Position numbers and translations under genes: made by a program. From positions 1-35,682 of the forward strand of contig DRKU01000111.1 in NCBI GenBank assembly GCA_011051615.1: DNA of 35,682 nucleotides, given 5' to 3'. The notes under the pieces are model-generated. The model saw nothing but the letters and a program-made list of their open reading frames with translations. It had not been told where the DNA came from and made no database searches. This stretch comes from Gammaproteobacteria bacterium. GTDB taxonomy: Bacteria; Pseudomonadota; Gammaproteobacteria; CAMYNG01. Below, piece after piece: positions 1-3,954 of the stretch. Numbering within the stretch: position 1 is the stretch's first letter; the number at the start of each line of letters is the position of its first letter.

Positions 1-561
1 AAGAATATCAGCCTGTGGTGAAGCCGGCTTGATCTCCATCAATTTATGGTCACGCTGACTCAGCAGATCAAGGATCGTACCGGCGTAGAACTGTGCTGCC
101 AGAGAAAGCCAGCGCTGCAACAGGGGTATTTTCTCCCCCACCTGTTGCCAGTGCAGGAGCCCGCCCAGCGCCTGGGCCGCCACCCATGGCCCGTCGGTGA
201 CCCAGCGGTTGACGGTAAACCAGCACAGAGGCTGGCCTTGCTGGTCCATGGACAGGGCTGCCACATGGGTCCAGCGGCGTACCGTCCCGTCACCACAGGC
301 AGCAAAAAAATGAAAATGCCCGTGTTCTTCAGGGGATTTTGCCGGTGAGTCGTGGCAATGATAGAAACAGCGCCAGCGATCCCCCATCAATAACAGGCTC
401 TCCTGCGGATAGCGCCGTCCGGCCTCGAGACGCGCCACGTCCCTGAGCAGTAACAGCACCGGGTTGGTCTGCTCCTGCGCCAGCGCTTCGATGCAGTGCA
501 ACAGGCCGAGGGCCGCTTCGCTCACTTCGGGCAGCGCGGGTGACGGTGATTCCTGATCCAT
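1..561 (-). CDS. Hypothetical protein, 3' end outside window (possibly DUF6969-like)
   Basis: Open frame on minus strand from ATG at 561 to window edge: MDQESPSPALPEVSEAALGLLHCIEALAQEQTNPVLLLLRDVARLEAGRRYPQESLLLMGDRWRCFYHCHDSPAKSPEEHGHFHFFAACGDG...; absent from the ORF track because truncated; 7 bp downstream of the preceding minus-strand gene. Family name is a weak recollection. Confidence 0.75.
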   Translation of the reverse strand, partial: MDQESPSPALPEVSEAALGLLHCIEALAQEQTNPVLLLLRDVARLEAGRRYPQESLLLMGDRWRCFYHCHDSPAKSPEEHGHFHFFAACGDGTVRRWTHVAALSMDQQGQPLCWFTVNRWVTDGPWVAAQALGGLLHWQQVGEKIPLLQRWLSLAAQFYAGTILDLLSQRDHKLMEIKPASPQADIL

Positions 562-568
562 GCGCACC

Positions 569-838
569 TCACAGGCTGCAGGGTGAGACCCCACCCAGGG
601 AACAGGGGTTTTCCTCCAGCGAACAGGGTGACTCGCCCGGCACATCGCCCAGCGAACAGGGACTCTCACCCAGGGAACAGGGTGAATCTTCCAGTGAGCA
701 GGGACTGGCATAGACATCTTCCGCCTGTGCCGCGGGCGTTTCCACCTCGGGCAGGCGGTGGCGCGTGTGATCGATGGCGATGCCGATGGCGGCAATACTC
801 AGTGCCGAGCCCATGATGAAACGATTGCTGATCTTCAT
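569..838 (-). CDS. Small membrane-anchored/secreted peptide with six [S/N]PCSL repeats
   Basis: Start ATG at 838 overlaps the stop codon of the upstream YeeE/YedE gene (ATGA). MKISNRFIMGSALSIAAIGIAIDH...AEDVYASPCSLEDSPCSLGESPCSLGDVPGESPCSLEENPCSLGGVSPCSL; N-terminal hydrophobic segment then Cys repeats. Confidence 0.8.
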   Translation of the reverse strand: MKISNRFIMGSALSIAAIGIAIDHTRHRLPEVETPAAQAEDVYASPCSLEDSPCSLGESPCSLGDVPGESPCSLEENPCSLGGVSPCSL

Positions 839-2037
839 GCCTGTTTTCCCCGCGGTCGATCGACACCCAGCCAGGCACGCATACGCAGCCCGAACAGGCT
901 GCCGGTGAAACCGGCCAGCAGCCACAGCCAGCCATGCAGGCTACCGGAAACGATCCCCGCCATCATGCCGCCGATGTTGCACCCGAAGGCAAGGCGCGCG
1001 CCGTAGCCCATCAGGAAGCCTCCCGTGATGGCCAGCATGATCCGCTTGCGATCGATGTGCCGATCCGGCGCGTACTTGCCGGCCAGTGCTGCGGCCAGCA
1101 TGGCACCGAGAATGATGCCGAAGTCCATCAGCGAAGTCTCATCGGCCAGCACGCTGCTCGCCAGCGCACGCGCCGCATAGCCTCCGCTCCAGTAATCCCA
1201 GTTACTGACATCCCCGCCCAGGGCGGTAAAGATCTTCGCACCCCACAGGCCGAAGGCAAAGGTAATGGTCCAGGGGTGACCGGACAACAGCAGTGTCACG
1301 AGATTGAGCACTGCGATACCTACCACCGCCCACCACAGTGGCCAGTTGCCAAAGATCAGGCGATCGAGCACCGGACGATTATCCTCTTTCTCCTGCAGGG
1401 TGGCGACACGGCCGCGTCGTTTGCGCTCATAGTGACGCACGATGGCGTAGAGCAAGGCAAAGACCACCATCTGCAGGAGCAGCGCTGGTAACCAGCCAAG
1501 CTTTGCGATCAGGGTCGGTTTGCCGATGTTGGGCAGGGCCCACCACCAGCCCACGTGTGCAGTGGCAACGAAACTGCCGAGGATGAAAAATATCAGCACG
1601 ATGAGCATACCGACATTACCGCCGCCGACGGTAAACAGCGTACCGGAACCACATCCCCCGGCAAGCTGCATGCCGATACCGAACATGAAGGCCCCCACCA
1701 GCACCGCCACGCCAAAGATCCCCGTGGCACCATTCACTGAAAGGCCTGGAAAGACATCGCCCAGCAGGGGGAAGAACAGCAGGGAAGTGAGTGCCAGCAG
1801 GAGGATCTGCGCACGCACCACGCGGCCTTCGCCGGTCAGGTAGAGGCGACGCCAGCCGCCGGTAAAACCAAAGGCCGCGTGTAACAGCGTGACGCCGAGA
1901 CCGACGCCGGTAAGGAACAACAGAGTACGACGCGTATCGACATCGTGTTGCACCAGCAGGCTGAGGGCCATGACAAGTAGTACCGCAATCAGCGCGGCAT
2001 GGCTGTCGGCGCTTCGCTTCAGGCTCGCAGTGGTCAT
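835..2037 (-). CDS. YeeE/YedE family (thiosulfate/sulfur) transporter, TsuA-like
   Basis: 400 aa polytopic membrane protein; two half-repeats with GxxxQLAGGCGSGTLFTVGGGNVGMLIVL and GYGARLAFGCNIGGMMAGIVSGSLHGW, the Cys-containing YeeE/YedE signatures. Confidence 0.93.
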   Translation of the reverse strand: MTTASLKRSADSHAALIAVLLVMALSLLVQHDVDTRRTLLFLTGVGLGVTLLHAAFGFTGGWRRLYLTGEGRVVRAQILLLALTSLLFFPLLGDVFPGLSVNGATGIFGVAVLVGAFMFGIGMQLAGGCGSGTLFTVGGGNVGMLIVLIFFILGSFVATAHVGWWWALPNIGKPTLIAKLGWLPALLLQMVVFALLYAIVRHYERKRRGRVATLQEKEDNRPVLDRLIFGNWPLWWAVVGIAVLNLVTLLLSGHPWTITFAFGLWGAKIFTALGGDVSNWDYWSGGYAARALASSVLADETSLMDFGIILGAMLAAALAGKYAPDRHIDRKRIMLAITGGFLMGYGARLAFGCNIGGMMAGIVSGSLHGWLWLLAGFTGSLFGLRMRAWLGVDRPRGKQA

Positions 2038-2815: not shown

Positions 2816-3406
2816 ATGCTTCGCTGCCAACCACCTGGCGCCCCGCGGCGCGATTTCCTCGGCGTGCTGCTTGCCGTAACGCTACTCGGCCTGCTGCCCA
2901 CAACCGTACCAGGCGCACCGGCCACGGCCGCAAAACGCCTTGAATACCAGGATGCCCGCCTGCGGCTGCGTTTCATGCCGCGCAGCCCGCAACAGATCCG
3001 TGCCTTCTACGAAGCCCGTGGTTTCCCGCCCGCGGCCCTGGCCGAGCTGGCGGCAACCTGCTTCATCACGGTCGGCATACGCAATCGCAGTCGGCAAGTC
3101 CTGTGGCACGACCTGAAGGACTGGCGCTTTACCCGCAAGGGCAAACCCCTGGCGCGCCTGCTGCGCAGCCACTGGCAGCGACGCTGGGAGGAACTCGGCA
3201 TCCGCGCCGGCCTGCGCGCCACCTTCCGCTGGACCCTGCTGCCGGAGACGCTGGACTTCCAGCCCGATGAAGGTGAAGGTGGCAACATCATCCTGCCCCG
3301 GGGGGACGGCCCCATTCGCATCGAAGCCGTATTTCACACCGGCCCACACGGCACGGGTGAGACCCTCCGTATCGAGACTGGAGACATTCCATGCGCCGTG
3401 GATTGA
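2816..3406 (+). CDS. Exported hypothetical protein
   Basis: ATG at 2816; signal-peptide-like N-terminus (RRDFLGVLLAVTLLGLLPTTVPGAPA); overlaps the tlpA-like gene by 16 bp. Confidence 0.75.
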   Translation: MLRCQPPGAPRRDFLGVLLAVTLLGLLPTTVPGAPATAAKRLEYQDARLRLRFMPRSPQQIRAFYEARGFPPAALAELAATCFITVGIRNRSRQVLWHDLKDWRFTRKGKPLARLLRSHWQRRWEELGIRAGLRATFRWTLLPETLDFQPDEGEGGNIILPRGDGPIRIEAVFHTGPHGTGETLRIETGDIPCAVD

Positions 3407-3954
3407 CGACACGTGGATTGACGAGGCTGGCCACACTGGTCCTCCTCGTTGGGGTGTTCCTGCTGCCCGACCCGGCCAGTGCCACGCCGCTGCCGAAGGG
3501 CATCATGGCTGTCACGCCGCCTCGCCTTGCCCCACTGTTCGAACTGGCCGACATGGACGGCCGGCGCTACCGTTTCAGACGCCATGGCAGCTGGCGCTTC
3601 GTGCATTTCTGGGCCAGCTGGTGTGCCCCCTGCCGCCGCGAGATGCCCGCACTGGCGCGTGCCGTCCCCCGCCTGGCGGCCATGTCCATGGAGGTGGTGG
3701 TGATCAATACCGGCGAGACCGAGGATACGGTATTCGAGTTTCTCGCCGCGGTGGCGCCGGACCAGCCTTCGCTGCTGGATAGTGACGGCAGCGTCACCGA
3801 GGCCTGGCGCCCCCGGGGCCTGCCCGCCACCTACCTGGTCGATCCCGATGGCCACATCCGCTATCTCGCCCTGGGCGGACGCCCCTGGGATGAGGCCGCC
3901 TACCTGGATTTCCTGCGCACGCTCACATCGGCGCCGGCACGGGCACGGGAATAA
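3391..3954 (+). CDS. TlpA-like thioredoxin-fold protein
   Basis: Signal peptide plus FVHFWASWCAPCRREMPAL and GLPATYLVDPDGHIRY. Confidence 0.95.
   Translation: MRRGLTTRGLTRLATLVLLVGVFLLPDPASATPLPKGIMAVTPPRLAPLFELADMDGRRYRFRRHGSWRFVHFWASWCAPCRREMPALARAVPRLAAMSMEVVVINTGETEDTVFEFLAAVAPDQPSLLDSDGSVTEAWRPRGLPATYLVDPDGHIRYLALGGRPWDEAAYLDFLRTLTSAPARARE

Follow-up and report, generated by a model that had tools for sequence, protein, structure and literature searches.

The window analysed here, that is the whole stretch of 35,682 nucleotides of contig DRKU01000111.1 (assembly GCA_011051615.1, a gammaproteobacterium), carries at one end a run of minus-strand genes in which an ORF for a Cys-repeat peptide of 89 amino acids, read from position 838 to 572 with its stop codon at 571-569 (MKISNRFIMGSALSIAAIGIAIDHTRHRLPEVETPAAQAEDVYASPCSLEDSPCSLGESPCSLGDVPGESPCSLEENPCSLGGVSPCSL), is flanked by a DUF6969 gene and a YeeE/YedE transporter gene. 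The features are as follows.

1..561, minus strand: DUF6969 protein (PF22308, E=3e-37), its C-terminus cut by the contig end; full-length in relatives
310..360, minus strand: invariant HxH...ExGHFH motif of DUF6969, a candidate metal site (56-sequence comparison)
572..838, minus strand: Cys-repeat peptide gene (ORF, same-position homologues, dN/dS 0.10)
572..706, minus strand: tail of six [S/N]PCSL units, residues 45-89 (sequence; 2-9 units in relatives)
746..838, minus strand: hydrophobic N-terminal segment (anchor or signal) with the conserved DHTxHxxPE at its end, residues 1-31 (alignment, hydropathy)
835..2037, minus strand: YeeE/YedE transporter, 400 aa, its stop overlapping the peptide start as ATGA (PF04143, E=7e-67)

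The peptide has exactly six [S/N]PCSL units, which between them account for all six Cys residues, its start shares bases with the stop codon of the transporter (ATGA) and the downstream ORF begins 7 bp past the peptide's own stop, confirming the hydrophobic N-terminus, the tail with one Cys per unit and the tight gene spacing that the original prediction, made from the sequence by eye of a model, had described. Mean hydropathy peaks at 2.2 over residues 8-22, and structure prediction of the peptide was uninformative (mean pLDDT 52). Even two [S/N]PCSL units never arose on shuffling the peptide residues (0/200,000 shuffles), synonymous codons differ among the six units (TGC/TGT; TCA/TCC/TCG/AGC), and Tandem Repeats Finder scored no DNA array at the repeat. 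With a hydrophobic N-terminus, six PCSL units and predicted export, the peptide has the form of an exported precursor with a repeated Cys motif. A likeness to DUF6520 was rejected, the 13.4 bits being under the 25.4-bit cut-off.

Homologues of the peptide were found in a congener (G001, 82% identical) and in a genome of the same family (G004) on searching 28 relatives, at the equivalent position in 13 of 369 sampled gammaproteobacterial genomes (E<1e-18), and at 13 loci, on 13 named MAG contigs, in a scan of 84,980 species, the latter mostly Ectothiorhodospiraceae/Chromatiales or other gammaproteobacterial MAGs with one MAG labelled Hyphomicrobiaceae. Each homologue starts with basic residues and continues with a hydrophobic stretch, the motif (I/V)DHTxHxxP and a linker, after which come several [S/N/T/A]PC[SGA][LM] units; the number of PC[SGA][LM] units varies from 2 to 9 across the relatives seen. 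The anchor is more strongly conserved than the tail, D23 and H24 being invariant and H27 nearly so across 18 relatives (including one Cys-less and two rhizobial proteins). Weak matches elsewhere (G020, G018, G033, G069, G217, G278 and others) were not significant, and four that were checked had no transporter in the stretch examined.

Between the window and G001, dN/dS was 0.10 for the peptide, 0.15 for the transporter and 0.20 for DUF6969, with 0.07 for the C-terminal part of the peptide, so that the repeat is maintained at the protein level. The peptide ORF is a real, conserved gene: the short PCSL-repeat ORFs of variable unit number that were proposed to lie beside YeeE genes are there in relatives, at the same position and in a conserved frame where missing homologues or frame-breaking indels would have spoken against them, and the idea of a translated small protein is borne out. 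That the ORF is spurious, or a selfish DNA repeat without protein function, has practically no chance of being right; its low complexity and differing unit number would suit such an explanation, but this is ruled out by the dN/dS values and by the gene keeping its start, frame, position and partners in both gamma- and alphaproteobacteria, and the differing synonymous codons also tell against it.

The transporter covers positions 1-308 of the 310-position Sulf_transp profile and so contains the full-length domain, and coupling of the peptide to a YeeE/YedE transporter at a conserved position stands on both the PF04143 match and the homologues. When aligned with TsuA the transporter retains Cys91 and Cys293, the equivalents of which are the only two invariant Cys columns among 13 relatives, and has Phe at the position of Cys22; of the conserved Cys through which, according to the original prediction, YeeE/YedE proteins move sulfur, the transporter thus has two of the three TsuA positions (Cys22, Cys91 and Cys293) and a replacement at the other, and the NCBIfam TsuA models scored far under their cut-off. 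Cys91 and Cys293 of TsuA are reported to be indispensable and are matched in PmpB and PmpA (PMC11582611), and TsuA meets YeeD, a cytosolic partner, at a surface that includes Cys22 (PMC11073785), so that its loss in the window transporter would fit a different partner arrangement. Upstream of the transporter are a DUF488 gene and a thioredoxin-like gene (TlpA-type, by eye) at 2263-2796 and 3391-3954, with a similar upstream region at locus L022, and in two MAGs an OsmC-like gene directly precedes the transporter (L024:4354-4755, by Pfam; L027:2696-3211, by eye).

On contigs that are long enough the usual gene order is YeeE/YedE, peptide, DUF6969 (PF22308) and an exported two-domain rhodanese, the last being out of view in the window, where the contig ends within DUF6969. 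In relatives the rhodanese is 322-327 amino acids long, its N-terminus is hydrophobic and its loop reads YCNSGHLA or, in one case, YCNSGQLA (10 sequences), with two PF00581 stretches, the putative catalytic Cys in the second of these and a predicted export signal; that of G001 lies at L021:4906-5880, and none was found in the stretch examined of G362. The three-gene operon of the original prediction therefore holds as regards the peptide being co-operonic with the transporter and the downstream ORF, and has to be enlarged to four genes by the rhodanese of relatives. All 13 peptide genomes among the 369 carry one low-scoring DUF6969 subfamily immediately downstream of the peptide, and the only other genome with that subfamily (G130) has no peptide, YeeE or rhodanese nearby; the copy in G002 is cut by the contig end, its upstream DNA being unseen. 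DUF6969 of any kind occurs in 30 of the 369 genomes. The same four genes are found in Sinorhizobium meliloti 1021, a standard laboratory strain, where rhodanese (approximately 1088209-1089042 of pSymB, NC_003078.1), YeeE (approximately 1089147-1090373), peptide (1090370-1090744) and DUF6969 (1090737-1091324) form a single compact run with overlapping stop and start codons and the peptide begins MTTRNTLLFGAALAAATAAVAVDHHNHPVPRAQ and has four PC units, and in Ciceribacter thiooxidans F43B, the peptide of which has more PC units than that of S. meliloti 1021. The plasmid gene table, which is known to be incomplete, shows no genes at the rhizobial cassette.

One genome departs from this arrangement. 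In G267, a Cys-less small protein with a DHFNHH anchor (L094:4639-4818) directly follows a YeeE 59% identical to that of the window, and DUF6969 was not found in this 97%-complete genome, so that transporter and anchor are kept whilst the Cys repeats and DUF6969 are jointly absent, in this single genome only. A model of the anchor alone, built from 18 rows, finds the same 13 genomes and G267, with the next match only at E=2e-4; G267 is itself one of those rows and its score there is not independent, its first detection having come from a model without it (E=2e-4). No relatives of the Cys-less peptide were found in a search of plasmids.

The DUF6969 protein of the window, though truncated, scores 128.4 bits against a Pfam gathering score of 27. 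Across 56 DUF6969 sequences H63, H65, E74, H77, H79, H94 and N113 (G001 numbering) are invariant, there is no conserved Cys, and an export signal could not be made out by eye. A confident AlphaFold2 model made from 12 sequences of the subfamily linked to SPCSL peptides (pLDDT 89.5, pTM 0.88) has successive strands at residues 58-64, 74-86, 89-101 and 106-112, with the invariant residues in or beside them. Foldseek with this model returned nothing in the PDB (best E 0.23) and nothing among viral models, a profile search of PDB sequences gave nothing significant, and no paper on DUF6969 or the repeat motifs was found in the literature outside subscription journals and supplements. The conserved His/Glu set suggests that DUF6969 binds a metal, and the best reading of these features is of a putative cytosolic metalloprotein that would act on the peptide Cys residues before export.

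Beyond the YeeE-linked cassettes, an exported Cys-repeat protein was found by hand within approximately 2 kb of DUF6969 at 44 of 50 loci, comprising 27/30 in the class sample and 17/20 in a phylum sample, the latter being a second draw of 399 genomes made as a test, with 20 DUF6969 loci outside the window's genome. Partners of DUF6969 proteins not associated with SPCSL peptides included NPCAAK, NPCAPSARGG and NPCAPG proteins and short GC/CC-rich proteins in the class sample, and NPCAPANPCAA, NPCNPCAAKKAA, KPCAAK, NPCGPAKKK and GCGAAKCGAK proteins as well as CAAGC and CCAAEG lipoproteins in the phylum sample. Apart from the Cys unit the partner peptides have little in common, which speaks for the pairing having arisen repeatedly. 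No Cys-repeat neighbour was found at the remaining six loci, at least one of which is at a contig edge. Using a scripted rule (a hydrophobic N-terminus followed by one Cys tripeptide occurring three or more times, or by three PC), a Cys-repeat protein was detected in 32/41 DUF6969 neighbourhoods as against 1/38 control stretches matched for length and contig (Fisher p=1.3e-12, a guide only since the loci are phylogenetically non-independent; the 41-locus set shares loci with both samples and also includes plasmid loci). The more important feature here is DUF6969, through its partnership with exported Cys-repeat proteins across the phylum, rather than the peptide itself. The pairing with YeeE on which the original prediction centred gives way accordingly, such peptides being tied to DUF6969 more than to YeeE, and its suggestion of a modified Cys peptide gains support because DUF6969, which it had not identified, accompanies exported Cys-repeat peptides generally.

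Several further genes were observed near DUF6969. Exported NPCAAK-type proteins with a SoxA/TsdA cytochrome c domain beside or between the repeats adjoin DUF6969 at seven loci (L085:4760-5530, L086:7757-8449, L108:432-1169, L110:2223-3065, L112:2361-3053, L113:641-1315 and L046:60-827). In genus g424 an exported-looking FGE-sulfatase (formylglycine-generating-enzyme-like) gene adjoins DUF6969 (L125:8335-9198; L126:8278-9150, by eye), with a divergent NPCAANPCAAK peptide approximately 1.2 kb away, and a CDGSH iron-sulfur protein lies near DUF6969 in two genomes (L092:4653-4931, by Pfam; L095:4180-5724, by eye).

In the DUF6969 tree, YeeE is a direct neighbour on four separate branches, formed by the SPCSL clade, the clade in which YeeE is split in halves, the rhizobial copies and G019. 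A related rhodanese gene comes after DUF6969 where YeeE is split, and before YeeE in the rhizobial cassettes. SoxY is present in 20/21 genomes with YeeE-linked cassettes (the Cys-less G267 among them) compared with 87/175 others (p=3e-5). The sulfur setting first proposed from the transporter is strengthened by this enrichment, by the exported rhodanese and by the SoxA/TsdA domains of the sister repeat proteins. In G733 an ArsR-family regulator with several Cys residues, which we take to resemble sulfane-sulfur sensors, directly follows a cassette of split YeeE, peptide, DUF6969 and rhodanese (L139:7389-7733). An MNIO (PF05114) is adjacent to DUF6969 in only two of 49 genomes, G140 and G717; in the latter an uninterrupted series of genes (L137:3138-6662) encodes DUF6969 and a GCGAAKCGAK peptide together with MNIO, DUF2063 and DoxX. 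The MNIOs of the window's genome lie on other contigs, and an MNIO as the hidden modifying enzyme was rejected with adjacency in two genomes only. As DUF6969 occurs with MNIO-type clusters in these two genomes and far from YeeE in many others, its general role need not be in sulfur, whilst for the YeeE-linked cassettes a sulfur cargo is more likely than a metal.

Taken together, we favour, at a probability of roughly 0.42, a reading in which DUF6969 is a metal-binding protein that acts on the precursor's Cys units, and the exported tail then serves as a multi-site sulfane-sulfur carrier between rhodanese and transporter. Peptide and DUF6969 are co-encoded. DUF6969, putatively cytosolic and with its invariant His/Glu set, would modify, protect or load the Cys units before export, by analogy with the action of MNIO enzymes on bufferins. 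Export would proceed by the hydrophobic signal or anchor, probably leaving the peptide tethered to the inner membrane such that DHTxH lies on the periplasmic side and the disordered PC[SGA][LM] tail extends beyond it, a topology predicted from the sequence. The rhodanese may then load sulfane sulfur onto the tail, a part that thiosulfate-conjugating SoxA/TsdA-type cytochromes might play in the sister systems, and the tail would buffer sulfane sulfur or pass sulfur to the transporter, with a capacity set by unit number. Rhodaneses catalyse other transfers as well, which counts against the sulfur-carrier explanation, as do the DUF6969 of G130 that stands apart from any cassette, the six loci with no Cys-repeat neighbour and the restriction of the Cys loss to a single genome. 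A wider and more tentative proposal is that DUF6969 founds a new metal-dependent class, neither MNIO nor radical-SAM and of a new fold (in the sense of no solved relative on comparison with the PDB and viral models), which would modify exported Cys-repeat peptides across Proteobacteria, the YeeE-linked product being a carrier with many sites for sulfane sulfur through which the periplasmic rhodanese would be coupled with a sulfur importer. The cassette and the DUF6969 linkage point to a previously undescribed route by which peptides that carry sulfur or metal are made or loaded.

The main rival to the sulfur carrier is a copper-binding role, in which the Cys repeats, probably modified with the help of DUF6969, would bind periplasmic copper or some other soft metal in the manner of bufferins and captophorins, with YeeE and rhodanese reflecting thiol stress and not the cargo. 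MNIO clusters make copper-binding peptides, of which exported Cys-motif precursors are the hallmark (PMC12452194, PMC12668002); the MNIO-DUF2063-DoxX cluster of G717 includes DUF6969, and in G140 the two genes DUF6969 and MNIO are adjacent, thioredoxin and CcdA genes flank the pair in Burkholderia glumae (KS03_RS29110 and KS03_RS28885), and the DHTxH motif could conceivably bind metal. Such a metallophore is nonetheless doubtful, given that no MNIO lies beside DUF6969 in the remaining genomes searched, that the stable cassette partners, on separate branches, are a sulfur transporter and a rhodanese, and that SoxY is enriched in the host genomes. We regard it as improbable, and more so than the metallophore, that the anchor is a small YeeE subunit and the Cys tail, in unmodified form, a docking site or a sensor of redox state or persulfide, with DUF6969 acting separately in a regulatory or chaperone capacity. 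This would account for the anchor being better conserved than the tail and persisting without Cys beside YeeE in G267, and has a parallel in the 56-aa Cys-less one-helix protein next to soxT1A in Hyphomicrobium (PMC11582611); it sits poorly with the strong purifying selection on the Cys tail and with DUF6969 accompanying Cys repeats even without YeeE.

It is very unlikely that DUF6969 lies beside the Cys-repeat peptides by chance, or that the two have no more in common than a regulon such as one of general thiol stress. The contexts are diverse and six of the 50 loci have no repeat neighbour, as such an explanation would allow, but the 32/41 against 1/38 in same-contig controls (p ~1e-12), the overlapping stop and start codons and the recurrence of the pairing with unrelated peptides speak for a closer link. 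The sulfur-carrier reading has a bearing on sulfur oxidisers, in which the transfer of sulfane sulfur from periplasmic carriers to the cytoplasm is described as poorly understood (PMC11582611): a conserved Cys-repeat peptide coupled to a transporter is a candidate for a missing link in sulfane-sulfur import. DUF6969 itself, widespread, uncharacterised and found beside otherwise unrelated exported Cys-repeat peptides, is a strong candidate for a new protein that matures or loads peptides.

Amongst known systems, the transporter shares PF04143 and the Cys91 and Cys293 equivalents with TsuA, SoxT1A/SoxT1B and PmpA/PmpB, and some cassettes have YeeE split in halves like PmpA/PmpB; it differs in the Phe at the Cys22 position and in its linkage to a Cys-repeat peptide and DUF6969, a linkage not described in the available text of PMC11582611 and PMC11073785. 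Hden_0678, beside soxT1A in Hyphomicrobium denitrificans, is a 56-aa, Cys-less, single-helix membrane protein with its N-terminus inside and no assigned role (PMC11582611), and going by that description it resembles the Cys-less G267 peptide as a small single-helix protein beside a YeeE-like gene, whereas the window peptide contains Cys; we treat its likeness to the anchor as a lead. With SoxYZ the peptide would share the proposed role of an exported Cys carrier of sulfane sulfur, and the sister NPC-repeat proteins contain SoxA/TsdA cytochrome domains, but it has many Cys per chain, is predicted to be disordered and probably membrane-tethered, has no Pfam SoxY match and ends in PCSL rather than GGCGG. 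It is short, Cys-rich and of low complexity like metallothionein-like peptides, from which it differs in being exported, in having one Cys per approximately seven residues, always after Pro, and in the absence of CxC or CC pairs. The MNIO (DUF692, PF05114) bufferins and captophorins likewise pair an exported precursor with repeated Cys and a cytosolic protein with an invariant His/acidic set; here the cassette has no MNIO or DUF2063, the partners are YeeE and rhodanese, and neither by sequence nor by fold does DUF6969 match any solved structure, those of MNIOs among them. The peptide is therefore assigned to no known family, and the closest working analogy is the logic of MNIO and bufferin, in a cassette from which the defining enzyme of that system is absent.
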